A stretch of 64,000 nucleotides of DNA, taken from NCBI RefSeq assembly GCF_030408395.1, contig NZ_CP046980.1, positions 62,001 through 126,000 of the forward strand, in the 5' to 3' direction. The DNA is from Corynebacterium aquatimens. Lineage in GTDB: Bacteria; Actinomycetota; Actinomycetes; Mycobacteriales; Mycobacteriaceae. Below, piece after piece: positions 341 to 63,315 of the stretch. Within the stretch, counting starts at the first letter, position 1. Each line of letters opens with the position of its first letter. Made by a program: the position numbers and the translations under genes. The notes under the pieces are model-generated. The model saw only the letters and a program-made list of their open reading frames with translations, was not told where the DNA came from and made no database searches.

Positions 341-703
341 CTAGTGGGTGATTGTTGTCTGTTGGTAGAGCGTGAGTGCTGGGGAGCCGTCGATAAGCGT
401 GTAGGTGCTGCTCATGATGGCTTCGAAGGTGTCTTCACCGCGCTGGGACGTGGCGTGGTAAACCAGCGTGGCGGTCTCAATGCTGACGGGGATGAGCTGT
501 GCGTCGGTGATGGAGTAGCTGTCCCACGGCGGGGCGTCGTTGAGGCTGGCGGCGATGGTGGCGCGGTCGAGGATCATGCCGTTGACCAGGATCATGACGG
601 CGTCTTCGGTCATGAGTTCGCCGTAGAACGTGCCGCCGGTGCCATTGGTCAGGGAGTCCCAGCCGCGGTGTTCTAAGGCGAGGAGCGTATCGAAGTCGAG
701 CAT
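341..703 (-). CDS. NTF2-like (SnoaL/DUF4440-type) small protein
   Basis: A 120-residue protein with the pattern of DUF4440/SnoaL NTF2-like folds. It has an N-terminal helix (LLALEHRGWDSL), a short region around FYGELMTEDAVMIL, a central segment (DRATIAASL) and C-terminal beta strands ending YTLIDGSPALTLYQQTT. Such proteins are cytosolic cone-shaped barrels that act as small-molecule binders or minor enzymes, and the substrate cannot be read from sequence. The length matches the family. There is no signal peptide. The lipase gene downstream of its start points the opposite way, so the 264-bp gap at 704-966 is a divergent promoter region. One copy of the CGTCGATAAGC motif lies inside this gene at 388-398. 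Confidence 0.75.
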   Translation of the reverse strand: MLDFDTLLALEHRGWDSLTNGTGGTFYGELMTEDAVMILVNGMILDRATIAASLNDAPPWDSYSITDAQLIPVSIETATLVYHATSQRGEDTFEAIMSSTYTLIDGSPALTLYQQTTITH

Positions 704-966
704 GGGTCCGACTGTACTCGCCGCGCGATTCTATGAGTCCAGCAAAAGTTCACGGTCACCGAAGGCAAGCAGCCCACCCGCCGTTAGTCGATCACTGTCG
801 AGCCGTTAATATTCGCCGCGTCAAAACCCCAGGTCGCGTTCACAGGAATCGGCCCGAAACGCCGACGGCTCGACACTGGTCCGTTTTCATCGAATTTCAC
901 GCCAAGAACGCCGCCAAACCGCTAGTTTTGTAAGGAAAATAACAGATACTATCGGCGGGAGTTTCA

Positions 967-2268
967 ATGTGGTTCGAACGGAAACGACAAGTAGTAGCAG
1001 TGTTAAGCGCACTCGCGCTGACCAGCGGGTTCGGCGCCCCAGTCGCGGCAGCCCAGAGCTCGGGCCCGTCGCCGTTTGGGTCGGCGGCGGATCTCACACA
1101 CCAGTCATCGGTGAAGACGGGCGAGTCCATGCGCCCGGTCGCGCAGCGGACCAAGCCTATATATAGGAGTGATTTGCCGGAGGTTGGGCCGTCGTCACGC
1201 GTGGGCGAAGTTCTGGCGAAGGTTCCGCTTGACCCGCGCGCGGGCCTTGATAACGCGGGTGAGCAGGTGCGTTTCGCATACACGACTGTCGATCAGCACG
1301 GTCAGCCCGCGGTGAGCACGGGCGCGATGTACATGCCCAAGGGCCAAAAGCCCGCGGGTGGGTGGCCGGTGATCGCGTGGGCGCACGGCACCGTCGGGCT
1401 TGGCGACGAATGCGCGCCGTCCATCAACCCGCAGGTGGGAAATGACGCGCGGTACCTGAACAAGTGGCTGGATGAAGGCTACGCGATCGTGGCCACGGAC
1501 TACGTGGGTCTGGATTCGCCGGGGCTGCACAGCTACCTCAACGGCAAGGTGTCGGCGGCGAACGTTGTGGACTCGGTCGCCGCGGCGCATGAGATGTTCG
1601 GCGGTGAACTGTCGAAGAAGTGGGCGGTGGTCGGCCAGTCGCAGGGCGGGGGAGTGGCGCTGCACGTCGCGCGCCGGGCCACGCCGCTCAGCGAGAAACT
1701 CGGCCTGGATTACCGCGGGGCGGTGGCTACTGGCGCGCCCGCGTACATCGAGGAGATCGTGATCGCCGCGGGCCCGACCTTTCCGCCGATGCCTCTACCA
1801 GGCGGTTTGTCGGTGTTTGGCCTCTACATCCTTGCCGCGGTGCAGGAAGCCCACCCAGAGATCGACATGGACGCCGCGCTTAGCGACGAAGGGCGATTCA
1901 TGCTCGCCGAAGCCAAAAAGAGCTGTTTCCACGAGGTCCGCGACGGGGTCCAAGGTGTGAACCTGGCCCGCGCGTTTACTAAACCGCTGCGCTCAGTGCC
2001 GGGGCTGGATAAAGCCATCCGTGAGTTCATGGCCACACCCACCAGCGGATACGACAAGCCGGTGTTTGTCGGCCACGGGCTCAAAGACATGGATGTGCCC
2101 AGCCCCATCGGGATGCTGCTGAACACGGAGATGTGGTTTAACCAGTTCTTCGGAATGCCGCGCAACACGCGCGTGGATGTGAAGTGGTACCTGTCTGACC
2201 ACGGCACGACACCTAACGTGGCGTTTCCGGATTCCTCGGCATTCCTGGCTGAAATCTTCCGAGACTAG
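967..2268 (+). CDS. Secreted lipase-family alpha/beta hydrolase
   Basis: This 433-residue protein has a signal peptide (basic MWFERKRQ, hydrophobic VVAVLSALALTSGFG, then a cut near VAAAQS). It is followed by an alpha/beta-hydrolase of the secretory lipase (LIP) family. The nucleophile elbow GQSQGGG lies near residue 224, with the oxyanion-strand motif WAHGT near residue 140. A late acidic residue (GLKDMDVP) and a late His (LSDHGTTP) complete a plausible Ser-Asp-His triad. It should cleave ester or lipid substrates outside the membrane. The ATG at 967 follows a weak purine-rich sequence (gggag). It stands alone, with a 360-bp gap downstream holding two palindromes. Confidence 0.85.
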   Translation: MWFERKRQVVAVLSALALTSGFGAPVAAAQSSGPSPFGSAADLTHQSSVKTGESMRPVAQRTKPIYRSDLPEVGPSSRVGEVLAKVPLDPRAGLDNAGEQVRFAYTTVDQHGQPAVSTGAMYMPKGQKPAGGWPVIAWAHGTVGLGDECAPSINPQVGNDARYLNKWLDEGYAIVATDYVGLDSPGLHSYLNGKVSAANVVDSVAAAHEMFGGELSKKWAVVGQSQGGGVALHVARRATPLSEKLGLDYRGAVATGAPAYIEEIVIAAGPTFPPMPLPGGLSVFGLYILAAVQEAHPEIDMDAALSDEGRFMLAEAKKSCFHEVRDGVQGVNLARAFTKPLRSVPGLDKAIREFMATPTSGYDKPVFVGHGLKDMDVPSPIGMLLNTEMWFNQFFGMPRNTRVDVKWYLSDHGTTPNVAFPDSSAFLAEIFRD

Positions 2269-3507: not shown

Positions 3508-4332
3508 ATGACGGTGACAAATGCGGGTGCGGCGCAGCTTTTGGCAGCAGTGCGGGAGCAGACCCCTTTGGTGCAGTGCATTACTAACTCGGTGGTGACC
3601 AATTTCACGGCGAACGTGCTGTTGGCGTCGGGTGCGGCGCCGGCGATGACGGACATCGTGGGGGAGGCGGGTCTGTTCGCGGGTATCGCTAGCGGTGTGC
3701 TGATCAATCTGGGTACGCCGACGCCGGAGCAGCGGGAGGCGTCGCGTGAGGCAGTGGCGGGTGCCGCGGAGGCGGGCACACCGTGGGTGCTGGACCCGGT
3801 GGCTGTCGGCGCGTTGCCGGTGCGTACGGAGCTCGCCCGCGAGCTGGTCGCGGCTGGTCCGACGGCGATTCGTGGCAACGCCAGCGAGATCATGGCGCTT
3901 GCAGGTGCGGGCGCGGGCGGCCGCGGCGTGGAGTCTTCCGATGAGGTCGATGCCGCGGTGGAGGCCGCCGTCGCTTTGGCGCAGCAGTCCGGCGCGGTCG
4001 TTGCGGTGTCCGGACCGAAAGACTTCATCACTGATGGTCAGAACGCGGTGTGGGTAGATGGCGGTAGTGAGTTATTGACCAAGGTCACGGGCGGCGGGTG
4101 CGCGCTCGGCGCGCTGATCGCGGCATTTTTGGGGGCCCGCGGTGAGGCTTCGGCGCTCGAGGCGGTTGCGGCCACGCACGCGTTCTACTCGCTCGTCGCG
4201 GAGCGCGCCGCGGCGAAGGCTCACGGCCCCGGCACGTTCGCAGTCGCGCTTATCGACGAATTGTCGTCCGTGACCCCGGATGACCTCGCCGCGGTGACGA
4301 GCATCAGCGCAACGACAACGAGTGAGAACTAA
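3508..4332 (+). CDS. thiM: Hydroxyethylthiazole kinase
   Basis: ThiM phosphorylates 4-methyl-5-(2-hydroxyethyl)thiazole so it can be joined to the pyrimidine by ThiE. The 274-residue product starts [20 protein letters not shown] and shows the family signatures [21 protein letters not shown] and GAAPAMTDI. It also has [10 protein letters not shown], the [10 protein letters not shown] segment and the C-terminal [17 protein letters not shown] anion hole with its catalytic Cys. Length is normal for the family. I prefer ATG 3508 with the upstream GGGAGCGG to a TTG at 3469. Its stop overlaps the thiE start (TAATG). It is the first gene after the TPP riboswitch. Confidence 0.95.
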
Positions 4333-6871: not shown

Positions 6872-7640
6872 CACAGGTTCGACTCCCCGTCTGCGGGTGG
6901 ACGGAATCACGCGAGAGTTTGTCGTCGATAAGCATGAGCGGCGCCTTGTGTTAGATGACATCTCTTTCGATGTCGCGCCGGGCGAGTTCATTTCCCTCGT
7001 CGGCCCCTCGGGCGCGGGCAAATCCACGCTGTTCAACATCATCGCGGGCCTTGATACGCCCACGTCGGGCCGCGTGCTTATCGACGGCCGGGAGGCGACA
7101 GGCAGCACCGAACACGCTGCGTACATGCCACAAAAAGACTTGCTTTTCCCGTGGCGCACCATCGCCGCGAATGCTGCGCTGGGCCTTGAGGTGCAGGGGA
7201 TGAATCGCCAGGAGGCACGCGCGAGGGTGCGCGAGTGGTTCCCGCGCTTCGGCCTTGAGGGTTATGAGGACGCTCATCCGTTTGAGCTCTCCGGCGGTAT
7301 GCGTCAGCGCGCGGCTCTGCTACGCACAGTGGTTCAAGATCGTCGCATCTTGCTTCTCGACGAACCGTTTGGCGCCTTGGATTCCCTGACCCGCCAACAG
7401 CTTCACGCGTGGTTGCAGGGCGTGTGGGCTGAAAATGATTGGACGGCGATCTTGATTACGCATGATGTGCGGGAGGCTGTCGCGCTGTCCGATCGCGTGA
7501 TTGTGTTAAGCCCGCGCCCGGCGCGTATCCGCGGGATTATTGACGTGGATTTGCCGCGACCGCGGTCGATTGAAGACACGGCGAGCCGGGAATTTGCATC
7601 GGTCGAAAAGCAGATCTTTGACACACTTCTGGCTGAGTAA
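6864..7640 (+). CDS. thiZ: Thiamine-precursor ABC transporter, ATP-binding protein
   Basis: A 258-residue ABC ATPase. Walker A is GPSGAGKSTL, the Q-loop is in MPQKDLLFPW, and the signature ELSGGMRQRAALLR is followed by Walker B ILLLDEPFGALD and the switch His in LITHDVREA. All catalytic motifs are intact. It overlaps the permease gene by 8 bp, closing the five-gene thiamine operon. Two CGTCGATAAGC motifs fall in this gene at 6923 and 7076. No clear terminator follows; the next 297 bp hold a GlxR-type site and the promoter region of the surface protein. Confidence 0.88.
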   Translation: MSDTGSTPRLRVDGITREFVVDKHERRLVLDDISFDVAPGEFISLVGPSGAGKSTLFNIIAGLDTPTSGRVLIDGREATGSTEHAAYMPQKDLLFPWRTIAANAALGLEVQGMNRQEARARVREWFPRFGLEGYEDAHPFELSGGMRQRAALLRTVVQDRRILLLDEPFGALDSLTRQQLHAWLQGVWAENDWTAILITHDVREAVALSDRVIVLSPRPARIRGIIDVDLPRPRSIEDTASREFASVEKQIFDTLLAE

Positions 7641-7658
7641 GTCCCGTGTACCTCAGCA

Positions 7659-7674
7659 TGTGAGGCAAATCACA
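7659..7674. promoter_or_regulatory. Putative GlxR/CRP binding site
   Basis: TGTGAGGCAAATCACA matches the GlxR consensus TGTGA-N6-TCACA in both half-sites. GlxR is the cAMP-responsive global regulator of corynebacteria. The site is 264 bp upstream of the large surface-protein gene and 19 bp past the transporter stop. It could act on the former, although the distance is large for direct activation. Confidence 0.6.
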
Positions 7675-7937
7675 TATTAGATGTTGGTGATTACTTGTGC
7701 CTGCGACTACGCAACCTGCCCTGCATTTTCGCTCTGCTCTGACCGACGCCCTGCCTGCCCCCGGCGGTACGGGCGGGCCCTGAGTGTCCTAGACCTTTGA
7801 AATTCCCTGACGATTCTCTACATTCTTAACCAGAACTTAGAAAACATTAAGTCCTAATGTGGGTTTAGTAAGAAAATCCTCACAGCTGCATAAAATGCGC
7901 TAGGGGATGCTCACGTGAGTGAAAGGGAATACCGAAA

Positions 7938-10391
7938 ATGAACCGCAAATCGACCTCGCCGCTGGCGCCGCGCCTATCGCGCAAGCTGGTTGCGGCCGTA
8001 CTGGCTGGCTGCCTCACCGTCAGTGGCACTGTCGCCGTCGGGCCCACAACGCCTGTCGCTGCGGCGCGGAGTGCCGTGGCTAACGCGGACCTGAGCAGCT
8101 ACGAGCCCCTGCCTTCTTCCGTCGACACCTCCCTGCTGATGCAGACCCCCAAGGTCAACGACTCGAACCTTCTTGAAGTCCCCGGCCTGGGCAATGGCTG
8201 GTGTATCGATGCCGGCGTTCCCACTCCGGGCACCAATGAGTACGTTCCCGCGAAGCTCACCGGCGCCTCCGGCCGCTGGTACACCCCTGGCACCACCAGG
8301 ATCGAGCCGGACCTTCTCAAGTCCGCCATCGCTGTGATGAAACTCCTCCAGGTCGACTACAACAACCGCGACCTAGACGGCGTGAAGAAGAAGACTGCAA
8401 CCCTCCAAGCCCTGTTGGGCAACGAGGGCGGACACCTCAACAACCTTCGCTACGAGATCCAGCACAACGGCAAGCCCGGCTGGCAGTCCTTCCGCGACAA
8501 GCCCACCTACGAAGAGTTCCGCGCCTGGACCGGCTTCGACATCTTCAGAAAGGAATCTCTAACCAGGGCGGACCGCGACCGCTACGCGATCAACCACCAG
8601 CTTGTGAAGAACCGCAACTTCGACTCCGTGACCAAAAACGTCGGCGCCTCCGAGTACCTCACCGTCCTCGTCCCGAAGAGCTACACCACCTTCCCACGCG
8701 ACGCTAAGAAAACGACCCAGCGCATCATCACCATCTACCAGCCGGGCATCACCATCACTGGCGGCGGGAACAACACCGGCGGCGGCACCGACAACACGAA
8801 CACGAACACGAACACGAACACCAACACGAACACCAACACGAACACGAACACGAACACCAACACGAACACCAACACGAACACCAACACGAACACCAACACG
8901 AACACCAACACGAACACGAACACCGTGACCATCGTGAACGGTGGCACCACGGAGCCGAACAAACCGGTCTCTGTCAACGTTGGCGTGAACGTCACCAATC
9001 TCGTGGTGGTCAACAATGGTGGTGGAAATGTCCAGGTGAACCAGGACGGCAAGGGCAACGTGGTTGTGAACCCGGGCAGCGGCACCAGCGGCGTGGTGGT
9101 TGTTGAAGGTACGGCGGCCGACGGCAGCACCGTTCAGGTCCACGTCACCGTGAACAACAATGTGAACGTCAACACCGGCGGCAGCACCGGCGGCAACAAC
9201 GGCGGCGGCACGGTGGTCACCCCGCCGACGACTGGCAGTGAGCACGAGTACTCGATCTACACCAACCAGCTGGTCCGCATCGATTTCAACACCACTAACT
9301 ACACGGTCACGCAGGGCAGCAATCTGGTTACCGTGAAGCTGGAGAACGGCAAGATCGTCGTTCGCCCGGTTGATGGTGCGAATGGCACCGCCGTGATCGT
9401 GGTGACGGATTCCAACGGTGGCAAGCACAAGTACACCTTCCACATCACCCCGTACAACGCACCGAAGGTGTCCCAGCAGGTCACTGTCGGATCCACCGTG
9501 AACGTGAACATCGATTCCCAACACACGCTCACCGTTGAAAGTGGCGGCGGCAACGTGTCCATCTCCAACACGGGCGGCGGTTACATCATCACTGCTAAGA
9601 ACCCGGGCACCACGGTGTTGGTTGAGCGCAACCCATGGGGCGTCGTGGTCAAGCGATACGAGATCATCATCACCCAGGTAAACACACCTGCGCCGAAACC
9701 CACCCCCACCCCCAATCCCAACCCCAACCCGAACCCCACCCCGAACCCATCCAACGGCTCCGGCAAGGTTGAAATCAAGGACAACGGGAACGGCTCCTGG
9801 ACCGTCACCAACCCGGGCGGCGGCAAGATAGACGTCGAGTTCACCACCGGCGGCGATTTGGTCGACGTGATCAAGAACCCTGACGGCTCGCTCACCATCC
9901 GCTACAAGGAGGGCAAGCAGGGCAACGTGACCTTCTACGTGCTCATTAACGGTGTGCGCGAAGGCGGCGACAAAAAGATCACCAACAACTTCAACCAAGT
10001 CATCAACAACAACGGAAGCAGCGTCAACAGCGAACAATCCTCCAGGAGCGAATGCATCGGCCCGATCATCGGTCTCCTCGCTCCGCTGTTGTTCCTGATC
10101 CCAGTGGCAATCCTGTCCCAGGTGCGTATCCCAGGCCTGGAGTTCATCAGCGAGGGCATTCGCCGCTTCAACGACGATCTGCAGCGCGGCGTCGGCATCT
10201 ACGATCAGCGGAAGGCTGAGGCAGCGGGCAACTTCTTTGCTGGTATCGACGGCCGCACGATTGGCCTCGGACTCGGCTCCTTCGCGGTTATCGCCTACGT
10301 GCTGGGCATGATGGATCTGGCACTGAAGAACTGCGGCAAGCCGGAGTTCACGTCATCCCACGCCATCGAGCAGGCGAGGAACAAGAAGTAA
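7938..10391 (+). CDS. Large secreted, membrane-anchored surface protein with Thr-Asn repeat
   Basis: An 817-residue protein. It has a signal peptide (residues about 1-42, basic start, LVAAVLAGCLTVSGTVAV, cut near VAAARS). An N-terminal domain (about 45-275) holds an isolated Cys in GNGWCIDAG. A pure Thr-Asn stretch (about 286-328) is followed by Gly/Asn/Val-rich beta repeats, a Pro-rich linker (KPTPTPNPNPNP, about 592-612) and another beta domain. Two hydrophobic segments lie near the C-terminus (IIGLLAPLLFLIPVAIL and TIGLGLGSFAVIAYVLGMM). This suggests an adhesin or cell-envelope protein anchored by its C-terminus. The WCIDAG motif vaguely recalls actinobacterial thioester domains, but I cannot support that. 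A terminator follows. Confidence 0.75.
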   Translation: MNRKSTSPLAPRLSRKLVAAVLAGCLTVSGTVAVGPTTPVAAARSAVANADLSSYEPLPSSVDTSLLMQTPKVNDSNLLEVPGLGNGWCIDAGVPTPGTNEYVPAKLTGASGRWYTPGTTRIEPDLLKSAIAVMKLLQVDYNNRDLDGVKKKTATLQALLGNEGGHLNNLRYEIQHNGKPGWQSFRDKPTYEEFRAWTGFDIFRKESLTRADRDRYAINHQLVKNRNFDSVTKNVGASEYLTVLVPKSYTTFPRDAKKTTQRIITIYQPGITITGGGNNTGGGTDNTNTNTNTNTNTNTNTNTNTNTNTNTNTNTNTNTNTNTNTNTNTVTIVNGGTTEPNKPVSVNVGVNVTNLVVVNNGGGNVQVNQDGKGNVVVNPGSGTSGVVVVEGTAADGSTVQVHVTVNNNVNVNTGGSTGGNNGGGTVVTPPTTGSEHEYSIYTNQLVRIDFNTTNYTVTQGSNLVTVKLENGKIVVRPVDGANGTAVIVVTDSNGGKHKYTFHITPYNAPKVSQQVTVGSTVNVNIDSQHTLTVESGGGNVSISNTGGGYIITAKNPGTTVLVERNPWGVVVKRYEIIITQVNTPAPKPTPTPNPNPNPNPTPNPSNGSGKVEIKDNGNGSWTVTNPGGGKIDVEFTTGGDLVDVIKNPDGSLTIRYKEGKQGNVTFYVLINGVREGGDKKITNNFNQVINNNGSSVNSEQSSRSECIGPIIGLLAPLLFLIPVAILSQVRIPGLEFISEGIRRFNDDLQRGVGIYDQRKAEAAGNFFAGIDGRTIGLGLGSFAVIAYVLGMMDLALKNCGKPEFTSSHAIEQARNKK
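8793..8923 (+). repeat. In-frame hexanucleotide repeat encoding (Thr-Asn)n
   Basis: About 130 bp made of AACACG and AACACC units. The third codon position of Thr alternates G and C while the amino acids stay Thr-Asn. Because the unit is 6 bp, slippage changes length but not frame. It lies between the N-terminal domain and the beta-rich region of the surface protein, a typical stalk position. Confidence 0.9.
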
Positions 10392-10404
10392 ATAGCAACG
10401 CGCA

Positions 10405-10450
10405 AGCCCTGCTAGTGACCTGGTGATGACCTGGTCCTAGCAGGGCTCTT
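10405..10450 (+). terminator. Rho-independent terminator after the surface protein
   Basis: Perfect 11-bp arms AGCCCTGCTAG (10405-10415) and CTAGCAGGGCT (10437-10447), a 21-nt loop, then a T-rich tail. It begins 14 bp past the stop codon of the surface protein. Confidence 0.85.
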
Positions 10451-10496
10451 TGCTTTTGGGGGCGCATCCCCGCTGCCGCATGCCCGACGGCGTATG

Positions 10497-10504
10497 CCCG
10501 GTCC
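10497..10504. repeat. Target-site duplication, left (CCCGGTCC)
   Basis: Eight bases directly outside the left 24-bp inverted repeat. They are repeated exactly outside the right one at 17252-17259. Eight base pairs is the usual duplication size for IS256-group elements. Confidence 0.85.
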
Positions 10505-10528
10505 GGGTTAAGTAGCAAAATGTGTGTC
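10505..10528 (+). repeat. Left terminal inverted repeat of the IS1249-like element
   Basis: Twenty-four bases starting GGGTTAAGTAGCAAAA. They match the reverse complement of 17228-17251 without mismatch; identity stops at the next base. Confidence 0.9.
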
Positions 10529-10666
10529 TGAGTTTCGGCGTTCTTGCTGATCAGTCTAGGTAAATCGGACGGATATAAGCAGCAAGACCTTATATCCGCC
10601 CGATTTGTGTTCAATCCACCGGAATGGCACTCGCATGTGCTAATCGGGGGTTGGTGTGCTTTCCGG

Positions 10667-10698
10667 GTGAGTAAAAACAGACCACGATGCCCAGTAGA
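10667..10698 (+). pseudogene. IS1249-type transposase, N-terminal fragment
   Basis: GTG 10667 opens VSKNRPRCPV, the start of the zinc-ribbon N-terminus typical of IS1249-type transposases. The frame is broken after ten codons by the end of an IS256-like element at 10699. The matching C-terminus lies 6.2 kb downstream at about 16946-17193. Confidence 0.65.
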
Positions 10699-12132: not shown

Positions 12133-12249
12133 TCTGCCCGGTATGCGCCTGCTCGCGCGCGCAAGCCGCACACTTGGCGAATACCTAGGCCGCGCCGGAT
12201 GGCCGCCCTCGGACCGCGACGCTGCGGCTGGCGAGGGAGCGGACCAGGG

Positions 12250-12648: not shown

Positions 12649-12880
12649 CTGCTGACTGCCTCCTGACTGGATGGACGCTGGCCGAGCGGTCCACGCGGAC
12701 CCCAGCGCACGACGGTTAGGAACAAGGACGTGCCCGGGCCGTCGCCTAACCACGTTAGCAGCTCTTCCTCACCAAGCGTGGTAGCCGGGTTGCGACGCGC
12801 TGACCGGGTTGGGCTGGTGAAGACGGGCCTGGGACTCCACGATTCGTAGCGACCAAGCAACGGATCGAGAGGAGTCCCAG

Positions 12881-14192: not shown

Positions 14193-14198
14193 CCAACC

Positions 14199-14948: not shown

Positions 14949-14999
14949 CCCACCCCGCACAAGCCGGCGCACAACCAGCGCCGGCCACCCCAGTACCAA

Positions 15000-15277: not shown

Positions 15278-15284
15278 AAGCATC

Positions 15285-17259: not shown

Positions 17260-17277
17260 GGCTCCATTCCTCTAAAG

Positions 17278-51881: not shown

Positions 51882-53306
51882 ATGGAACGTGCGGATTCGG
51901 TTGAGGCGGCCGTCGATAAGCTCATTGCTCTGTATTCCGCGTCTTGCGAGAAGGCGCGTGAGGTGCTTCAGTCCGGTGCCTTTGAGGACTATGAACAGGT
52001 GCGCTACCCCAAGATTTCCGTGACGGTGAAGCAGTGGCACCCGATCGATCGCGCCGAGCCTTTCGGGTACGTCGATGAGGCTGGCGTGTACTCCGCGGAG
52101 CTCTCGCGGCCGGATCTGATGCAGAGCTACCTGCGCAAACAGCTCGAGTGCCTGACCAATAACTACGACTGCGAGATCGAGGTCGGCTATTCCGACACCC
52201 GCATCCCGCCCGAATACATCGACGGCGTTGAGGGGCTGTCGGAAGTTCGCCGGAGCGTGTCCAGTGCCGCCAGCATCCCGCGCCCAACCCTCGACGAGGT
52301 CCACGACGCGATCGTTGACGGTGACTGGGACGTTTTCCACGCCGCTGAAAAACCACTCTTCCACTTCGGCCCGCAGCGCTTCGACATCGCCTGCGCTCGC
52401 ATCCAGCATTACACCGGCATCACAGTCGACACCGTGCAAAAGTTCATACTCTTCACCAACTACGACATGCACGTGCGCGAATTCGTTGCGTTCGGCATAG
52501 AGCAATTGCTTAACGACGACTCCCGCTACACCGCCCTGCAACTCCCCAACGCCCAAAAAATTACCGCCCGGGACCTCCAAGGCGTGGATGCCCAGCAGCT
52601 CAAGGACGTGGGAATCGCGTCGAAGTACCAGATGCCGCGCATCGATTTGGTCACGCCGAACGGTGACGGGGTGACCATGATCAACATCGGTGTGGGCCCC
52701 TCGAACGCGAAGACAATCACGGACTGCCTCGCGGTGCTGCGCCCGGAGGCGTGGATCATGATCGGCCACTGCGCCGGACTGGACGCGCGCATGCGCATCG
52801 GCGATCTGATCCTCGGCAACGCCTACCAGCGCCACGACCACGTTTTGGACAGTCATCTACCCGTTGACCTGCCGATTCCCGCTGTCCCAGAGATCCAGCG
52901 CACCCTGGAAAAATCCGTGAAGAAGATCTACGGGGACGAAGAAGAATCACTCATGCGCACCGGCACGGTGCTGTCTACTGGTGACCGCAATTGGGAATGG
53001 AACTCGCCCAAGGAGCTGTGGGAGTGGCTGCGCGGCTCCACCGCCGCGGCCGTGGACATGGAATCCTGCACGATCGCCGCCAACGGCTACCGCTACCGAG
53101 TGCCCTACGGAACCCTGCTGGCGGTATCCGATCTTCCCCTGCATGCGGTGCCGAAGCTGCCGGCCGCAGCCCAGGCCTTCTATTCAAATTCCAAGCAAGC
53201 GCACGTGATCTGCGCCGTGCGCGCGATGGAGCGCCTGGCCAAGCACCCCGAGCGCCTGCGCACCCGCAAGCTGCGCCGCGCGATCGGTGAGCTTCCGTTC
53301 CGCTGA
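51882..53306 (+). CDS. amn: AMP nucleosidase
   Basis: I choose ATG 51882 (MERADSVEAAVDKLIAL), with GGTGG upstream, giving 474 residues. The product hydrolyses AMP to adenine and ribose-5-phosphate. The N-terminal domain (about 1-170) is family-specific (YPKISVTVKQWHPIDRAEPFGYVDEAG). The C-terminal nucleoside-phosphorylase-like domain has the phosphate/ribose motifs INIGVGPSNAKTITDCLAV, LRPEAWIMIGHCAGL and AVDMESCTIAANGYRY. Normal length. It begins a run of plus-strand genes with the HAD protein 17 bp downstream. Confidence 0.9.
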   Translation: MERADSVEAAVDKLIALYSASCEKAREVLQSGAFEDYEQVRYPKISVTVKQWHPIDRAEPFGYVDEAGVYSAELSRPDLMQSYLRKQLECLTNNYDCEIEVGYSDTRIPPEYIDGVEGLSEVRRSVSSAASIPRPTLDEVHDAIVDGDWDVFHAAEKPLFHFGPQRFDIACARIQHYTGITVDTVQKFILFTNYDMHVREFVAFGIEQLLNDDSRYTALQLPNAQKITARDLQGVDAQQLKDVGIASKYQMPRIDLVTPNGDGVTMINIGVGPSNAKTITDCLAVLRPEAWIMIGHCAGLDARMRIGDLILGNAYQRHDHVLDSHLPVDLPIPAVPEIQRTLEKSVKKIYGDEEESLMRTGTVLSTGDRNWEWNSPKELWEWLRGSTAAAVDMESCTIAANGYRYRVPYGTLLAVSDLPLHAVPKLPAAAQAFYSNSKQAHVICAVRAMERLAKHPERLRTRKLRRAIGELPFR

Positions 53307-53848: not shown

Positions 53849-54964
53849 ATGGAACCTGGAACCGGTGGCATGAGTCCAATGGGTATGAGAAAACCTTTCA
53901 CTCGTACCCCCAAGCACCTAGTTAACGGAATGCACGTGCATTCATGGATACCCGGACGCCTCAACACAGACGGCAACGGCATCCGCGTTTCCCAGCATCA
54001 ATTCGCCACGGGCATTTCTGCCAGACCCCCTGAACTGGTCAGATACCAAGCCCAGTTTCATCCCGCCAACATTGGTTACGCCGCCGATGCTGGCATTCGC
54101 GCCGTCGCCGCCGCGATCGATCACCCTGGACATGTGGTCACTGGGCTCAGCGCTCTCGCGCTTTTCGGGTTGCCGTACTTCGCGGACGGCTGCGACACGA
54201 CCCTGGGCGGGCCAATCAACAAGACCCGGCCGGCGGGGGTTGTGGCGCCAAGAATTGTTCGTCGTAAAGCGGAAAATGCCTGGTGCGTGCGTTGGCGGGG
54301 GTACGAGATTGATGTCAGTCCGCCTGCTGATGCAGTGGTAGATGCGATTCGCAACATCAGGGATGGCGTGTGCACGTGGGCTGTCCCAAGTTGGGTTTCT
54401 GATCACAAAAGCTTCAGGGCAATTTCGCTTATCGACGCCATCCGCCGCTTCCTCGATATTTCCCTCGATTCCGTTCTGGAAGCCGCCCGGGGGAAAATAA
54501 ACAAGAAATGGCTTGAGAAGGTGATCAGTTTATCGAGCAACTTGGCTGATTCCCCGATGGAGACCGAGATGAGGCTGATGACCCGGGCGTTGTTGGAGGG
54601 GCCGGGCCAGCTTCCTTTGCAACTGATTCATCCTGATTCAACGGACCGGACTGCCCAGGCGATTATTCAATTGTCGGAACGGATCAGCCACCTGGGTTTG
54701 AAACTCACGGAGCAGGTGGAAGTCCGCGATGGAAACAGGCTGATTACCGTTTTTGACCTGGCGATTGAATCGTTGAAGATCGGGCTGATGTACGACGGTG
54801 AACACCATCTTTTGCGGAGCCAGCGGGACCAGGATTCAGAGATCACGCTGGACTGCGCCTTTGAGGACTGGTTTCCGCTCCGGTTTTCCGCGGGGACCCT
54901 ACCAAACCTGCCGATTTATCTGTACAGATTGATCGTTGCTCGGTCCGACAGGTTGGCCGCGTGA
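53849..54964 (+). CDS. Orphan AbiEi/DUF559-like (VSR-type nuclease-like) protein
   Basis: A protein of up to 371 residues from ATG 53849; other ATGs follow at 53870-53885, so the true start is uncertain. Upstream in-frame codons belong to the repeat and were excluded. The N-terminal half resembles AbiEi-type winged-helix proteins (RAVAAAIDHPGHVVTGLSALALFGLPYF). The C-terminal half carries a DUF559/VSR-like pattern (SPMETEMRLMTRALLEGPG, LIGLMYDGEHH, then QRDQDSEITLD). I see no partner AbiEii toxin. The gene sits exactly between two 90-bp repeats, and its TGA stop is inside the second. Confidence 0.65.
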   Translation: MEPGTGGMSPMGMRKPFTRTPKHLVNGMHVHSWIPGRLNTDGNGIRVSQHQFATGISARPPELVRYQAQFHPANIGYAADAGIRAVAAAIDHPGHVVTGLSALALFGLPYFADGCDTTLGGPINKTRPAGVVAPRIVRRKAENAWCVRWRGYEIDVSPPADAVVDAIRNIRDGVCTWAVPSWVSDHKSFRAISLIDAIRRFLDISLDSVLEAARGKINKKWLEKVISLSSNLADSPMETEMRLMTRALLEGPGQLPLQLIHPDSTDRTAQAIIQLSERISHLGLKLTEQVEVRDGNRLITVFDLAIESLKIGLMYDGEHHLLRSQRDQDSEITLDCAFEDWFPLRFSAGTLPNLPIYLYRLIVARSDRLAA

Positions 54965-55048: not shown

Positions 55049-56131
55049 GCTCACACGCAACGGCTCCCGCAGAACAAGGTCCAACGCAACGGCCCGGGCA
55101 ATATCGCGCACTACCTCGCGGTGGGTCGGGATCATGCGAAGGTTGACAGCGCGCCGTTCGGCGGGATCGGGCAGATTGGAGCGTGCCACACGGGCGAAGA
55201 TGGCGGGGGCTTTCGGGTCATCCGTGAAAGCGGACCCGGCGACCACTAGCGTGGCCGGGGAATGGGCATTGACCAGGTCAGCAGCCAACTCCCCGAGTTG
55301 CACAATGCGCTGGTCAAGCGCTGCGCGTAGGGACGTGTTGGTATGGGCCGCCACCACGGCATCGCTGAGTTTTGCAATCCCGGTCTTTGTAGCCATCCCT
55401 TGGGTGGTCAGGTCTTCCCGGTCAATCGCGATGGGCAGGACCCCGGTTTCGTGGGAGACCGCCGCGCCGATCGAGTCATCCACGTACAGGGCCATGGTGG
55501 GCGGGGTGCTAATGGAGCCAGTCGATTGGATCTCCGACCCCACGATCCCCGCAACCGCCGCGGTCACGGTGACGGGAACACTGAATTGCTCCTGGAGTTG
55601 TGCGCCGATGTCTTCGCCGAACCAGCCCAGGTTGGGCGCTGTGACCACGCCATCGGGGGTGACAGATCCGGAGGTGGTCACGCCGACTGTCGCCAGGGGT
55701 TGCTTGAGGTCCGAAAGCATTCGGTTGAGGGCAGCCATGATGTGCTGGATGAAGTCGCCTTGGGCCAGGTTGGCAACGTCGGTGGGCACGTCGGTCTCAC
55801 GGATCGTGCGGCCTTTGATGTCAAACAGGGCGATGTATGTAGACGCTGTTGCCACGGCGATTCCTGCATAAATGGCGCCCGTGTCCGCCAGCTCAATTGG
55901 AATGATCGGACGGCCACGGCCCTGCGATTGGGCAAGGTCCGCGCGCTCAACCACGAATCCTGACTCGACCAGAGAGGACACTGCCCGGGTCACTGTTGGC
56001 TGCGACAGTCCGGTTGCGGAGACAAGCTCGCTTCTCGACGTCACCGAATTCAGCCGCACGAGGTGAAGACACTTGGCGGCCGGCGTGTGGGGCCGTGCGT
56101 AGGCGGACCACGTCGAACTCATGGGCGTCAT
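55034..56131 (-). CDS. ROK-family transcriptional regulator
   Basis: A 365-residue protein. The N-terminal winged helix-turn-helix reads VTSRSELVSATGLSQPTVTRAVSSLVESGFVVER. The ROK domain follows (TVGVTTSGSVTPDGVVTAPNLGW, VTVTAAVAGIVGSE, MALYVDDSIGAAV). The sugar-kinase phosphate motif DxGGT is absent (AGIAVATASTYIALFD), so it is likely a sugar-responsive regulator and not a kinase. The start overlaps the sirtuin gene by 4 bp. Its stop lies inside a 90-bp repeat. Confidence 0.85.
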   Translation of the reverse strand: MTPMSSTWSAYARPHTPAAKCLHLVRLNSVTSRSELVSATGLSQPTVTRAVSSLVESGFVVERADLAQSQGRGRPIIPIELADTGAIYAGIAVATASTYIALFDIKGRTIRETDVPTDVANLAQGDFIQHIMAALNRMLSDLKQPLATVGVTTSGSVTPDGVVTAPNLGWFGEDIGAQLQEQFSVPVTVTAAVAGIVGSEIQSTGSISTPPTMALYVDDSIGAAVSHETGVLPIAIDREDLTTQGMATKTGIAKLSDAVVAAHTNTSLRAALDQRIVQLGELAADLVNAHSPATLVVAGSAFTDDPKAPAIFARVARSNLPDPAERRAVNLRMIPTHREVVRDIARAVALDLVLREPLRVSRENV

Positions 56132-56877
56132 TCTAAACCGGCCAGGATTGTAGGTAAAACCTCCGCGGCGGTCCCTTCCACGGTGACCGTCGCCAGCCGG
56201 GACAGCTCAGTCGGCGCAGGCGTGACCTCAATGATCGGGGTGCCCATCTGGTGCGCCAGCATCGGCAGCCCAGCCGCCGGGTACACAACCCCGGACGTAC
56301 CCACGATGACCACGAGGTCGGCGGTGACCATGTCCATTTCCGCCCGTTCCCATTCGCGTTCCGGAAGAGCCTCGCCGAACCAGACAACGCCCGGCCGAAC
56401 GAGGTCCCCGCAGGACTCACACCGCGGCGGCGCAATGGATTCCGCCGGCTGGTCGGGGATGGTCACGCGATGAGGCTGACCGCACGAGGTGCAACGGAAC
56501 TCAAACAGGGATCCGTGGAGGTGCGTCACGTCCGTCGAGCCTGCGCGTTCGTGCAGGTTATCAATGTTTTGGGTGGTTACGCTGACAGAGGTACCGTCGA
56601 TAAGCGACCAGCGCGAAATGGCCACGTGACCCGCGTTTGGCTCCGCGAGGCTCGCGAGTTTGGTGCGCCACAGGTACCACGCGAACATCGGCTCCGGGTC
56701 CGCGCGCCACGCGTCGATGGAGGCCATGGCCTGCGGGTCAACGTTTTCCCACAGCCCCGTCACTGCGTCGCGGTACGTCTCCAGTCCGCTGTCCGCGCTC
56801 ATGCCAGCACCCGTGAAAACGTTGACGCGCCGGGCGCCGGCGGCGAGCTCGATTGCTTGGTCCAGTGGGGTTCCCAT
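56128..56877 (-). CDS. cobB: NAD-dependent protein deacylase, sirtuin (CobB type)
   Basis: I choose ATG 56877 (MGTPLDQAIELAAGARR), giving 249 residues. Motifs are VFTGAGMSADSGLETYRD (NAD), TTQNIDNLHERAGS and HLHGS (catalytic His), zinc pairs CTSCG and CESCG, and VIVGTSGVVYPAAGLP. The AWYLWR segment contains the Tyr-x-x-Arg seen in class III sirtuins that remove succinyl or malonyl groups. It acts in the cytosol on lysine acyl marks. It is coupled to the ROK regulator and divergent from the DUF885 gene, with only 25 bp between starts. Confidence 0.9.
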   Translation of the reverse strand: MGTPLDQAIELAAGARRVNVFTGAGMSADSGLETYRDAVTGLWENVDPQAMASIDAWRADPEPMFAWYLWRTKLASLAEPNAGHVAISRWSLIDGTSVSVTTQNIDNLHERAGSTDVTHLHGSLFEFRCTSCGQPHRVTIPDQPAESIAPPRCESCGDLVRPGVVWFGEALPEREWERAEMDMVTADLVVIVGTSGVVYPAAGLPMLAHQMGTPIIEVTPAPTELSRLATVTVEGTAAEVLPTILAGLE

Positions 56878-56902: not shown

Positions 56903-58552
56903 ATGACTGCTAAACGCACGCCGTCGCTGTTGGACGCGACGTGTGAGGCCTTCGTCTATGACCTCGCGGAGATTTCGCCCACGCTGGGCACGGAGTTGGG
57001 GCTCGAAGGCTACGACGGTGAGCTTCAAGATTTCAGCCCGAACTACTGGTCGGCGATCGCTGATCGCATTCGCGAGCTCATCGCGGACGTTGATGCGCTT
57101 AACGACGGCACGGATGCTAGCGATGACGAAGACGACTTTGATTCGATCGACGAGCTGACGGCGGAGATCCTCCGCGAACGCATGTCGGTGGAGTTGGAGC
57201 TGCACCACCAGGGTGAAAACTTGCGGCAGCTGAACAACATCACCTCGCCCGTTCAAGAGATCCGCAAGGCGCTGACGGTGATGCCGAAAGACACGGCGGA
57301 CGACCTGGAAAACGTTGAGTCGCGCCTTCGCCAAGTTTCCGCGTCCCTTGCCGGTTACCGCGAGTCGCTGGCGGAGGCCGCGAGCCAAGGTGACGTCGCG
57401 TCCGCGCGTCAGATTGACTGTGTGACCAGCCAATGCGAGGCGCTTGCCGACGACGGGTCGCTGCTTGAAGACCTCGGTCTTGCGCCGGACAACGACGCCG
57501 TGCGCACGGCAAAGGGCGCGTTCGCGGACATGGGGGACTGGCTGTCCACGGAGCTGGCGCCGCTGGCCAAGCACTATGACGCGGTGGGCCGCGACCGCTA
57601 CGAGCTGTTCTCTGAGTACTTCCTGGGCCGTCAGATTGACCTGGATGAGGCCTACGATTGGTCGCTGGAGGAGCTGAAGAAGCTGGTTGAGCGGCAGGGG
57701 GCGGTGGCGAAGAAGCTGTACGGCGACGACGTCAACGTGCGCGGCGCGTACCGGCGACTGGACAATGACCCCGGCTATTCCTTGACCGACAGCGAGGTGT
57801 TTGTGTCCTGGATGCAGGACATGTCAGACCGGCTGATTGATCAGCTGGACGGGACGCTGTTCACTCTGCCGGAGGAGCTGCGCACCATTGAGTGTGCTTT
57901 GGGTGAGGCCGGCCACGGCGGGGTGGTGTATGCGCCGCCGTCGGAGGACCTCTCGCGGCCTGGGACCTTATGGTGGTCGACTCCGGGAGGCGAGACGATC
58001 CACGCTTGGCACGAACTGACAAAGATCTGCCACGAGGGCGTTCCTGGCCACCACGTGCAACAGGGCATCGCCATGGCTCAGCGCAACACGCTGAACCTGT
58101 GGCGCCGCACGATGAACTTCAACTCCGCCCACGGTGAGGGCTGGAGCGTGTACGCCGAAAACCTCATGGAAGAGGTCGGCTTCTTCGAAGACCCTGCGTA
58201 TGAAATGGGTCTGTTAGATAGTGTCCGGTTGCGCCTTGCCCGCGTGGCCGTAGACATTGGTGTCCACCTGCGCAAACAGACCCCGGACGGCACCGGCACC
58301 TGGGACGTGGCCTACGCGAAGGCCTTTTTGCGCGACAACACCGCGATGAATGAGGCCCGCCTAGGGTTCGAATTGGACCGCTACCTGGGCTGGCCCGGCC
58401 AGGCCACCAGCTACGCGCTGGGCTACCGGGACTGGTTGGACCTGCGTGACGCGGCGCTTGCTCAGGGCATGAGTCTCAAGGAGTTCCACGACAAGGCGCT
58501 TCGTCTGGGATCCATGCCCATGGATATCTTGCGCCGCCACGTGTTGAACTAA
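56903..58552 (+). CDS. DUF885-family protein (predicted metallopeptidase)
   Basis: I choose ATG 56903 (MTAKRTPSLLDATCEAFV), giving 549 residues; upstream codons lie in the sirtuin gene. It shows the DUF885 pattern: helical N-terminal half (acidic DASDDEDDFDSIDEL loop), then VYAPPSEDLSRPGTLWW and ICHEGVPGHHVQQGIA. The HEGxPGHH segment is a metal-binding signature. NSAHGEGWSVYAENLMEE follows, then a conserved C-terminus (LGYRDWLDLRDAALAQG). Function is unknown, probably peptide hydrolysis in the cytosol. A TAGACT sequence shortly before the ATG suggests a leaderless start. It is convergent with the AbrB-type gene. Confidence 0.85.
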   Translation: MTAKRTPSLLDATCEAFVYDLAEISPTLGTELGLEGYDGELQDFSPNYWSAIADRIRELIADVDALNDGTDASDDEDDFDSIDELTAEILRERMSVELELHHQGENLRQLNNITSPVQEIRKALTVMPKDTADDLENVESRLRQVSASLAGYRESLAEAASQGDVASARQIDCVTSQCEALADDGSLLEDLGLAPDNDAVRTAKGAFADMGDWLSTELAPLAKHYDAVGRDRYELFSEYFLGRQIDLDEAYDWSLEELKKLVERQGAVAKKLYGDDVNVRGAYRRLDNDPGYSLTDSEVFVSWMQDMSDRLIDQLDGTLFTLPEELRTIECALGEAGHGGVVYAPPSEDLSRPGTLWWSTPGGETIHAWHELTKICHEGVPGHHVQQGIAMAQRNTLNLWRRTMNFNSAHGEGWSVYAENLMEEVGFFEDPAYEMGLLDSVRLRLARVAVDIGVHLRKQTPDGTGTWDVAYAKAFLRDNTAMNEARLGFELDRYLGWPGQATSYALGYRDWLDLRDAALAQGMSLKEFHDKALRLGSMPMDILRRHVLN

Positions 58553-61048: not shown

Positions 61049-61083
61049 AAACGCTTAATTTACTTGGTGTTCCCCATGAATCC

Positions 61084-63315
61084 CTAACGGCCCGCCGTGG
61101 CAGTCGCACTCCACGGGTCCTCGGGCCATGGGTGCTTCGGATACCGCCCGCGCATCTCTTTGCGCACACCGTCATATGGCCCGTCCCAAAAATTCCGCAG
61201 GTCATCGGTCACGGCCAGCTCGCGCCGCGCGGGGGAGAGCAAGTGAAAGAGCACGCGCACATTGCTTATCGACGGAGACTCCTCCAACCCGAAACACTCC
61301 TGCAACTTCACCCGGACGATCGGCCGCCCCGTTGCGTACTCAATTTTTGGCCGCGACCCGCTAGGCACTTCGAGCCTTTCCGGCGCAAGCGTGTCCAACT
61401 CAGCTGCCTCCGGCCACGGTAGTTGCCGCATCAGTGCGCCATACATATCTATTTCCCGCAGGGCCACGCCCTGCGCCAGCTGCTGAATCTCCGGGGAATA
61501 GTCACCCCGTTCCACGTCCGGCCATGGCTCGCCGAGCTGTGCGTGGAGAAAGTCAAGCCGGGCTTTCAGCGATTCCGCTTTCTCGGACAGGTGGAACTGA
61601 GAAAACTCGAACCCGTGCAGGGCTTCGATGGCCTCTTCAGGGGTGAGCCGCACCGGGGTTGAGCTCAGTTCAATAGCGCCGATAGCCTTCACTCGCCGCC
61701 CGCGCACCGCGCCGTTTTCATACGTTGCCCGTGTCTGTTCGACGATTCTGTCCGTGGGCATTTGTGTTGCCGCCCCGGAGCGAATAACGGCACCGCGCCC
61801 GGTTAACTGCACTTCCGCCGCCGCGATCCACTCGCTGACCGGAATTGCTGCATCCAACGTCGCCCTGGTGCCACTGGCCAGCAGGTACTCGCGTTCACTC
61901 ACCTGCATTCCCACCCACTCCGGGTACGCAGAACTGATAACTTCCCCCGCAGACACCGGGCCACGGTCCTTGACCAACCGCGCCAGCCTTTCAACACTGC
62001 GCTTTGGCGCCCGCGCCCGGTCCAGATCACCGTTCATGCCCTCCGCCATCGCCGCAACCGTCGTCGCAGCTCCCGCGCCGTGTGTCAGCAGAGCAGCCCC
62101 CATCCGAGGGTCCAGCGGCAACCGCGCCAGCCGCTCGCCGAACTCCGTAATCGCACCGTCAACGGCTCCGAGCGCCCTCAGCGTCGCCAGCGTCGCCAGC
62201 GCATCCTCCATCGCCTGCGCCGGCGGTTCCGACAGCAACGGCAGATCCGGTGAACCCCACGCCGCCATGGTCAACGCCGCTGAGGTCAGGTCACTCGACG
62301 CGATCTCCGGCACAATATCGGCCGCGAAGTGCTGATAATCCTCGCGCGAGTACGCACGCAATACAGTCCCCGGACCCAGGCGTCCCGCGCGTCCCGCGCG
62401 CTGATCAGCACTCGTCCGGGCCGCGGACACCGTGACGAGACCGGTCATCCCCCGCGCCGCATCACGCCGCGGCACGCGTGCAAGCCCGGCATCCACAACA
62501 CGCCGCACACCCGGCACCGTTATCGACGACTCCGCGATCGACGTCGCCACCACCACCCGCGCGTCGCCATTGAGCGCCGCGTCTTGCTCCGCAGAGCTCA
62601 ACCGCCCGTGCAGCGGCACCGCGTCACGACTCGCCCCGCACACCAGCTCCACCTCGCGGACACCGGGAACGAACACCAGGGTGCGATCGTCGCCGTCGGC
62701 AAGCGAAGCGACGTGCTCATAGAACTCCCGCGTTCCCTGCGCGCGCCCCGGATGCGGGTGGTAGCTCACCTCCACCGGGTGCGTCACCGCTTCAGTCGAG
62801 AGCACCTGCGCCCCCATGTGCGCGGCCAGGGCCTTCGCGTCCAGCGTCGCGGACATCGCCGCCAGATACAGGTCATCGCGCAGGTACGCGACCTCCATCG
62901 CCATCGCCAGCACCAGGTCCGTCTCCAGCCCGCGCTCGTGCACCTCATCGATCACGATCGCGCCGACGCCGGTCAGCTCCGGATCCGCGATCAGCCGGTT
63001 CAGCAGCACCCCCGGCGTCACAAACTCCACCAGCGAGCCATCGCGGTGCTCGCCCCGAATCGAGTACCCCACCCTATCGCCCAGCACCGATTCGTCGAGA
63101 AGCGCCAAGCGCCTCGCGGCCGCGCGCACAGCCACTCGCCGCGGCGCCGTCACGAGGGTCACCCCTTCCACACGATTGCTTATCGACGGCGGGAGCAACG
63201 TCGTCTTACCCGTTCCCGGTGGCGCTTCCACAACCAATGGCCCAGTTGGCGGCAGTGAATCGATCACATTCGCCACCGGCAACCCCGCGCCGATCTTTAG
63301 AAGGTCAAACATCAC
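61084..63315 (-). CDS. hrpB: ATP-dependent RNA helicase HrpB
   Basis: A 743-residue DEAH-box-type helicase. Motifs are APPGTGKTTLLP (I), VTAPRRVAVRAAA (Ia), IDEVHERGLETD (II, DEVH), MSATLDAKAL (III), LVFVPGVREVE (IV) and SADQRAGRAGRLGPG (VI). The HA2/HrpB C-terminal domains follow. It starts at GTG 63315 or the adjoining ATG 63312. It is likely an RNA/RNP remodeller. Two CGTCGATAAGC motifs lie in it (61264, 63178), read as SIS (TCG ATA AGC). A promoter-like region with an 18-bp palindrome lies upstream. Confidence 0.92.
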   Translation of the reverse strand: MMFDLLKIGAGLPVANVIDSLPPTGPLVVEAPPGTGKTTLLPPSISNRVEGVTLVTAPRRVAVRAAARRLALLDESVLGDRVGYSIRGEHRDGSLVEFVTPGVLLNRLIADPELTGVGAIVIDEVHERGLETDLVLAMAMEVAYLRDDLYLAAMSATLDAKALAAHMGAQVLSTEAVTHPVEVSYHPHPGRAQGTREFYEHVASLADGDDRTLVFVPGVREVELVCGASRDAVPLHGRLSSAEQDAALNGDARVVVATSIAESSITVPGVRRVVDAGLARVPRRDAARGMTGLVTVSAARTSADQRAGRAGRLGPGTVLRAYSREDYQHFAADIVPEIASSDLTSAALTMAAWGSPDLPLLSEPPAQAMEDALATLATLRALGAVDGAITEFGERLARLPLDPRMGAALLTHGAGAATTVAAMAEGMNGDLDRARAPKRSVERLARLVKDRGPVSAGEVISSAYPEWVGMQVSEREYLLASGTRATLDAAIPVSEWIAAAEVQLTGRGAVIRSGAATQMPTDRIVEQTRATYENGAVRGRRVKAIGAIELSSTPVRLTPEEAIEALHGFEFSQFHLSEKAESLKARLDFLHAQLGEPWPDVERGDYSPEIQQLAQGVALREIDMYGALMRQLPWPEAAELDTLAPERLEVPSGSRPKIEYATGRPIVRVKLQECFGLEESPSISNVRVLFHLLSPARRELAVTDDLRNFWDGPYDGVRKEMRGRYPKHPWPEDPWSATATAGR

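Follow-up and report, generated by a model that had tools for sequence, protein, structure and literature searches.

A bipartite motif repeated across Corynebacterium chromosomes as a candidate DNA uptake sequence

A 64,000-nucleotide stretch of the Corynebacterium aquatimens chromosome (bases 62,001-126,000 of contig NZ_CP046980.1, the single contig of a 2,524,396-base genome; hereafter the window) raises a simple question: why does one 11-base word, CGTCGATAAGC, recur throughout it? The results presented here reveal that, among the forms of a bipartite motif, CGTCG-NN-AAGC (CGTCGNNAAGC), this word is the most frequent. The motif is present in large excess in most Corynebacterium genomes sampled and is almost certainly a functional genome-wide signal of some kind. 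Sequence evidence suggests that it marks self DNA for recognition, and its likeliest role is that of a DNA uptake sequence in natural transformation, a reading given a probability of about 0.6.

The motif in its genome and its genus

All 17 exact copies of CGTCGATAAGC listed in a preliminary description of the window were recovered, the one placed at 50000 beginning at 49999. Chance expectation is indeed far lower, since dinucleotide-preserving shuffles give 0.01 copies. Allowing one mismatch raised the count to 41 (1.3 expected), and 20 of the 24 additional matches deviate solely at the two central positions; the one-base-off site that had been noticed near 23367 exists and occupies 23360-23370. 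CGTCGATAAGC is one of 16 forms of CGTCG-NN-AAGC, with nine bases fixed and any base allowed at positions 6 and 7; the window holds 47 sites when all forms are counted. The suggestion that the word is chromosome-wide is borne out. The complete genome contains 515 copies of the 11-mer (257 and 258 by strand; reversed control, 0) and 1,447 copies of the bipartite motif (719 and 728 by strand; reversed control, 48), or one per 1.7 kb.

Finer properties were determined in a 464-kb sample of the 2,524-kb genome, composed of the window and 20 evenly spaced 20-kb stretches, with 348 genes called by our own simple codon-usage caller. This sample underlies the variant, flank, codon-shuffle, polarity, spacing and density figures. 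It contains 258 copies of the motif, compared with 12.2 from an order-4 Markov model. The spacer is strictly 2 bp, as spacers of 0, 1, 3, 4 and 5 bp yield 5-16 sites each, and AT is its commonest sequence (101 of 258 sites). Of these 101 11-mers, 77 have a pyrimidine immediately 5' and 76 a purine immediately 3'. The core of the motif is sharp, given that the 27 one-base variants at fixed positions show no overall excess within genes (245 in total versus 243, sd 14, in 40 codon shuffles). The strongest exception is C at the second base after the spacer (42 versus 9.9 in codon shuffles), which is also an axis of variation between species. T3 to G (23 versus 12.6) and A9 to G (13 versus 5.7) are mildly raised, and some variants fall under expectation, such as A8 to C (13 versus 27.3).

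A word that lies mostly in genes may simply be a by-product of amino-acid or codon usage, here of the peptides LID and VDK. Genes hold 217 of the 258 sample sites (84%; coding fraction, 78%), and 175 of the 217 share one codon phase, 130 as antisense L-x-D and 45 as sense V-x-K. Shuffling synonymous codons within genes, however, left only 18.1 sites (sd 4.1, maximum 28 in 100 shuffles) compared with the 217 observed, and for the 11-mer alone 2.9 compared with 77. Furthermore, 37 genic sites lie in the second phase and five in the third, 41 of the 258 sites fall outside called genes, the reversed control has 48 copies genome-wide against 1,447, and both copies in hrpB use the codon ATA, as had been noted, the copy at 63178 lying in hrpB only if the gene starts at 63315. 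The preliminary description was therefore correct that coding bias is insufficient, and this explanation can practically be discarded. Its tally of fifteen copies read in frame as LID or VDK becomes 14 plus one uncertain copy, as 14 of the 17 read this way in called genes and the copy at 54427 lies in none.

The arrangement of sites along the chromosome shows no replication polarity. A strand bias relative to replication had been put forward as a check, and none was found (49/45 on one arm and 46/47 on the other; Fisher p 0.77). Density is 0.58 per kb in the origin half and 0.52 in the terminus half. With no strand bias and little difference between origin and terminus, a replication or segregation polarity was rejected. 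Regular spacing was not seen either; distances between sites are exponential, as for random placement (KS p 0.72). Dispersion of density is 1.15 (p 0.30) without two island stretches, L017 and L018, and 1.68 (p 0.03) with them.

Mobile DNA lacks the motif wherever it was tested. The nest of insertion sequence (IS) elements in the window (7641-17626) contains no site where 5.7 are expected (Poisson 0.003), in agreement with the earlier remark that the island is free of copies. The wider gap described from 7.1 to 20.2 kb holds for the 11-mer; with all forms counted, the empty stretch narrows to 7363-18375. L017 and L018 are two of the emptiest sampled stretches and were inspected because they are empty. 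Motif-free positions 9549-14429 of L017 carry a DNA methylase gene followed by two opposed IS3 transposase copies flanking a Mutator transposase, and L018 holds a transposase with a Mu-type C-terminal domain. A set not picked for emptiness, the rve-domain transposases of the genome, gave the same result: eight distinct open frames totalling 8.2 kb contain no site versus 4.7 expected (P 0.009). This set derives from 23 loci, one of which lacks an open frame and 14 of which are copies of the eight counted. Plasmids of C. aurimucosum and C. tuberculostearicum likewise have no site, where 11.4 and 10.2, respectively, are expected at host-chromosome density. Host density was taken for the former as 1,179 copies in 3.0 Mb (genome G081, whose RodA is identical to that of the C. 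aurimucosum locus L084) and for the latter as a rounded 900 in 2.4 Mb (G005 and its kin; the RodA of G005 is identical to that of locus L092). Two further Corynebacterium plasmids also have no sites, the motif content of their hosts lying outside the comparison.

The motif is widespread in Corynebacterium and appears restricted to it. Among 61 Corynebacterium genomes, including that of the window, 46 contain 280-1,891 copies of CGTCGNNAAGC on nearly equal strands, and 15 are at background (28-108 copies). Two of these 15 use a CATCG form, CATCGNNAAGC, instead (1,021 copies in G006 and 680 in G077; control, 7 each). Neither form is in excess in the remaining 13, which include the ambiguous G065 (CGTCGNNAAGC, 108 versus control 49; CGTCGNNACGC, 166 versus 31), counted as motif-less. 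CATCGNNAAGC is also mildly raised, at 118-159 copies, in some motif-rich genomes (G004, G005, G011, G036, G075 and G076). Across the order, 249 genomes from 68 genera were drawn. The three Corynebacterium genomes among them have 1,096-1,517 copies, and in all 246 others the excess over control stays within about 1.7-fold. Named loci are only 6-21 kb long, so the motif class of each is provisional. The CGTCG form is dense in those of C. mucifaciens, C. pilosum, C. glaucum, C. lowii, C. gottingense and others, and the CATCG form occurs in those of Corynebacterium sp. MSK130, Corynebacterium sp. J010B-136, an uncultured member (L090) and C. phoceense (3 copies). No CGTCG copy was found in the 6-21-kb loci of C. 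jeikeium, C. variabile, C. glyciniphilum, C. marambiense and C. pygosceleis.

The history of these forms was traced on a RodA tree of 78 rows, 30 of them from the 61 genomes (G077 was left out, and four of the 78 rows are ambiguous). The row of the window falls among named Corynebacterium loci, and the motif occurs in deep and shallow branches. The minimum number of changes is nine for the CGTCG form, seven for absence and three for the CATCG dialect. All five CATCG rows nest within the group containing C. aurimucosum and C. tuberculostearicum, one CATCG clade being the sister of the C. tuberculostearicum clade. Along a second dialect axis, the second base 3' of the spacer varies between A and C, and many genomes tolerate C. 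CGTCGNNACGC reaches 794 copies in G027, 623 in G016 and 602 in G019; the genome of the window has 271 (control, 66). It is at background in genomes of the C. aurimucosum/C. tuberculostearicum group, such as G004, G005, G011, G012, G076 and G081. Other dialects were sought in five of the 13 motif-less genomes (G010, G014, G015, G030 and G033) by searching 80-120 kb of each for 9-11-mers and gapped words, and none was found in the last four. In G010 (loci L027-L030, L172 and L173) there is a weaker excess of CTGGTGGCGTCG, and TGGTGGCGTCG occurs 12 times in 80 kb versus 0.2 expected, before any codon-usage control. CTGGTGGCGTCG in this genome often has a G directly before it, giving GCTGGTGG, the Chi word of E. 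coli.

Motif sites are maintained between motif-rich loci. In 25 such loci of L079-L120 with at least three sites, aligned sites survive intact more frequently than neighboring windows of matched phase, whichever of the five identity bins is considered: 0.13 versus 0.044 below 70% identity, 0.21 versus 0.071 at 70-75%, 0.27 versus 0.129 and 0.54 versus 0.277 in the next two bins, and 0.83 versus 0.593 at 90-98%. This corresponds to 1.4- to 3-fold conservation over the phase-matched windows, with pairs counted in both directions and hence not independent.

A candidate uptake signal and its rivals

Taken together, equal strands, genic placement, absence from tested mobile DNA, dialects, patchy loss and raised conservation favor an uptake sequence over the alternatives. 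The fuller proposal, with odds only somewhat better than even, is that CGTCGNNAAGC and its dialects form a DNA password of Corynebacterium that a specificity factor in a Flp/Tad-ComEA-ComEC system recognizes, and that dialect switches divide the genus into preferential exchange groups. The half-sites CGTCG and AAGC, 2 bp apart, would be read by a DNA-binding competence protein at the cell surface or in the envelope. A Flp/Tad-type pilus would take up DNA bearing the word and deliver it to ComEA, and ComEC would let it through, after which it could recombine into the chromosome. Preferential uptake would spread the word and keep it in place, giving hundreds to almost two thousand copies, and plasmids and IS elements would be left without it. 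Changes in the recognizing protein would create dialects (CATCGNNAAGC, and A or C as second base after the spacer), and some lineages may have lost the uptake preference. We infer three steps in this proposal: reading of the word by a protein, membership of that protein in the uptake machinery, and maintenance of the word by biased uptake.

The genome of the window encodes the machinery that such a process would need. It contains comEA-comEC-holA (C1:667,808-670,860), a tad locus (C1:211,567-216,034) with tadA, tadB, tadC, a DUF4244 Flp pilin gene and TadE-like genes, and a prepilin-peptidase gene. According to PMC4322843, all tad genes except tadB are essential for transformation of Micrococcus luteus, and tad genes frequently occur together with comEA/comEC in actinobacteria. 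Among the 61 genomes, ComEC and the Flp pilin are found in all, prepilin peptidase in 60 and T2SSF in 59. The genome without prepilin peptidase is motif-rich (G082, 91% complete), and the two without T2SSF are motif-less. Stronger T2SSF scores in motif-rich genomes had first hinted that presence of the machinery might discriminate between the two classes. This idea was dropped because tad genes occur in motif-less genomes and the Flp pilin and prepilin peptidase are near universal. A near-universal machine does not explain by its presence which species carry the motif; the difference is expected to lie in the candidate specificity factor. The tad genes are also present in loci of both CATCG genomes.

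Two further observations concern ComEC. Its stop-to-stop frame is 654-879 aa in 11 of the 13 motif-less genomes and about 420-640 aa in most motif-rich ones (exceptions: G013, G019, G034 and G080); the longer frame is possibly an extra domain that follows phylogeny. In G001, on contigs C10 and C4, RodA and ComEC each appear as two neighboring partial matches, which suggests frameshifts or assembly errors.

Several results weigh against an uptake sequence. None of the four components queried across the 61 genomes (ComEC, T2SSF, prepilin peptidase and DUF4244) tracks the motif, and tblastn detected diverged tad genes in loci of five motif-less genomes (G010, G014, G015, G030 and G063). Decay of uptake sequences by mutation might leave an overall excess of one-off copies, and the sample genes have none. 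Neighboring pairs within 60 bp number four versus nine expected, two of the four being in opposite orientation. Close pairs are thus rarer than chance, a terminator role is not supported, and terminator function through close inverted pairs was rejected. The notion that sister dialects arise by the same sites flipping one base was not supported either: of seven CATCG sites in MSK130 (L091), five could be aligned to C. tuberculostearicum (L092), and one is conserved. The shortage of sites on plasmids could partly reflect composition, as the four plasmids have a G+C content of 0.52-0.56, under that of the chromosomes. Finally, no report of transformation or of an uptake sequence in Corynebacterium was found in titles and abstract openings of the open-licence literature, in part among the matches listed. 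Matches listed for the exact letters of the word concern unrelated subjects by title, and the form with N gave no match.

Other roles for a genome-wide signal must also be considered. The motif may be the binding site of an abundant chromosome-organizing or partition-type protein of Corynebacterium, such as a nucleoid protein, condensin guide or division-exclusion factor, and be kept by selection on chromosome structure. A bipartite site restricted to one genus, conserved above background and evenly dense apart from islands is consistent with this role. Yet spacing is random, and neither strand nor origin-terminus position matters appreciably; the background level in 13 of 61 genomes, the base-level dialects and the four plasmids without sites also argue against such a protein, which is considered unlikely. 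A segregation or replication mark, one of three mechanisms offered in the preliminary description, is disfavored. The second is a HIP1-like motif that site-specific methylation of DNA, or mismatch repair directed by the motif, would have enriched without any role in uptake. It would account for an exact motif repeated many hundred times across a genus, and slow enrichment would also leave recently acquired DNA depleted. It is weakened by the motif being non-palindromic, 11 bp long with a free 2-bp spacer and subject to dialect changes, and mutational bias should yield many one-off intermediates, whereas these are at expectation overall; it ranks as improbable. The third, an uptake sequence, fits best of those offered, as the sites are equal on both strands, mostly genic, absent from tested plasmids and IS elements, and differ by dialect between species.

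A Chi-like site, controlling a nuclease of recombination or repair and tagging DNA as self, would fit the absence from plasmids and the mostly genic placement. Chi sites are 5-8 bases long and strand-skewed, however, whereas this motif has nine fixed bases in 11, no skew and a 12-fold excess over codon-preserving expectation, so a Chi-like function is given little credence.

Sites and neighboring features in the window

The 47 sites and the motif-free stretch are listed in Table 1. The open reading frame (ORF) at 7938-10391 encodes an apparently secreted product of 817 aa with no Pfam match and contains 21.8 units of the 6-base repeat AACACG (8793-8923), the probable source of AACACGAACAC, the window's other 11-mer in strong excess. 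Within the IS nest, a Mutator-family transposase is split over two adjacent frames (10753-11286 and 11317-12000). The frame at 13420-13953 encodes 177 aa, equal in length to the Mutator frame 10753-11286, and is followed by two IS21 IstB genes. Near their N-termini, ORFs 53735-54964 and 54936-55871 have the phrase LPRWDLVA...QTFSRL in common. The first is without an NCBIfam match, and the two are possibly a duplicated non-coding repeat rather than genes.

Table 1. Sites of CGTCG-NN-AAGC and the motif-free stretch in the window
Site or feature	Position	Strand	Source and remarks
CGTCGATAAGC	388..398	+	11-mer scan
CGTCGCCAAGC	1398..1408	-	bipartite-motif scan
CGTCGCTAAGC	1878..1888	-	bipartite-motif scan
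CGTCGATAAGC	4248..4258	-	11-mer scan
CGTCGATAAGC	6923..6933	+	11-mer scan
CGTCGATAAGC	7076..7086	-	11-mer scan
CGTCGAGAAGC	7352..7362	-	bipartite-motif scan
Motif-free stretch: repeat-rich, apparently secreted ORF 7938-10391 and IS nest (Mutator-type and IS21-type transposase genes)	7363..18375		
CGTCGTCAAGC	18376..18386	+	bipartite-motif scan
CGTCGGCAAGC	18460..18470	+	bipartite-motif scan
CGTCGTTAAGC	18997..19007	+	bipartite-motif scan
CGTCGATAAGC	20190..20200	+	11-mer scan
CGTCGTTAAGC	21476..21486	-	bipartite-motif scan
CGTCGAGAAGC	22369..22379	-	bipartite-motif scan
CGTCGACAAGC	23015..23025	-	bipartite-motif scan
CGTCGGCAAGC	23048..23058	-	bipartite-motif scan
CGTCGATAAGC	23681..23691	+	11-mer scan
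CGTCGAGAAGC	23984..23994	-	bipartite-motif scan
CGTCGTCAAGC	25286..25296	+	bipartite-motif scan
CGTCGATAAGC	25398..25408	-	11-mer scan
CGTCGTTAAGC	26082..26092	-	bipartite-motif scan
CGTCGTTAAGC	28013..28023	-	bipartite-motif scan
CGTCGTTAAGC	28159..28169	+	bipartite-motif scan
CGTCGACAAGC	30047..30057	-	bipartite-motif scan
CGTCGGCAAGC	31090..31100	+	bipartite-motif scan
CGTCGATAAGC	34393..34403	-	11-mer scan
CGTCGACAAGC	34888..34898	+	bipartite-motif scan
CGTCGTCAAGC	35482..35492	-	bipartite-motif scan
CGTCGATAAGC	40115..40125	+	11-mer scan
CGTCGACAAGC	40680..40690	-	bipartite-motif scan
CGTCGGTAAGC	41087..41097	-	bipartite-motif scan
CGTCGATAAGC	43296..43306	+	11-mer scan
CGTCGAGAAGC	45033..45043	+	bipartite-motif scan
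CGTCGATAAGC	46373..46383	-	11-mer scan
CGTCGATAAGC	49999..50009	+	11-mer scan
CGTCGCTAAGC	50050..50060	-	bipartite-motif scan
CGTCGATAAGC	51911..51921	+	11-mer scan
CGTCGTTAAGC	52508..52518	-	bipartite-motif scan
CGTCGTAAAGC	54260..54270	+	bipartite-motif scan
CGTCGATAAGC	54427..54437	-	11-mer scan; in no called gene
CGTCGAGAAGC	56030..56040	-	bipartite-motif scan
CGTCGATAAGC	56595..56605	+	11-mer scan
CGTCGTTAAGC	57097..57107	-	bipartite-motif scan
CGTCGGCAAGC	57442..57452	-	bipartite-motif scan
CGTCGATAAGC	61264..61274	-	11-mer scan; in hrpB, reads TCG ATA AGC
CGTCGGCAAGC	62694..62704	+	bipartite-motif scan
CGTCGAGAAGC	63093..63103	+	bipartite-motif scan
CGTCGATAAGC	63178..63188	-	11-mer scan; hrpB frame if hrpB starts at 63315, reads TCG ATA AGC

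Comparison with known systems

To our knowledge, uptake words are established in two Gram-negative families. No such signal in the phylum of Corynebacterium was found in titles and abstract openings of the open-licence literature, in part among the matches listed; a report elsewhere is possible. If the proposal is correct, transformation acquired sequence-specific recognition of self on more than one occasion, and natural transformation is predicted in Corynebacterium. Much of this genus belongs to the skin and mucosal flora of people and animals. A password would help explain which bacteria exchange genes with which, and tagging DNA with the right dialect could ease the engineering of non-pathogenic strains. 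With the dialects, the search for a receptor becomes directly testable.

The DNA uptake sequence (DUS) of Neisseriaceae is read by the minor pilin ComP. It is equal on both strands, genic and absent from plasmids, and its inverted pairs are common as terminators without being essential. PMC3630211 describes the DUS as a short exact word of very high copy number, with dialects among related species, some of them one base apart. The Corynebacterium motif resembles it in being short, exact and abundant, in having dialects among related species and, as tested here, in its equal strands, mostly genic placement and absence from plasmids. Unlike the DUS, it belongs to a Gram-positive actinobacterium, is bipartite with a free 2-bp spacer and forms no terminator pairs; the machine present is Flp/Tad rather than a Neisseria-type pilus, and its uptake role is a proposal.

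The uptake signal sequence (USS) of Haemophilus has an exact core of about nine bases and over a thousand copies in a small genome, and the motif is similar in both respects. Unlike the USS of Pasteurellaceae, it has an unrelated sequence, lies in another phylum and lacks an overall excess of decayed one-off copies. Both Pasteurellaceae and Neisseriaceae are described as carrying many uptake sequences in PMC7811141.

Among motifs with other functions, cyanobacterial HIP1 (GCGATCGC) is a palindrome highly iterated across a group of genomes. The Corynebacterium motif is equally an iterated exact motif across a group of genomes but is not palindromic. Like KOPS, Chi and similar replication- or repair-polarized motifs, it is short and chromosome-wide; unlike them, it shows no strand polarity. 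The nearest parallel for the machinery is Flp/Tad-dependent transformation in Micrococcus luteus, as presented in PMC4322843, since actinobacterial tad and comEA/comEC genes are found here too. The text of that paper contains neither "uptake sequence" nor "Corynebacteri", and in Corynebacterium a link between word and machine is a proposal.

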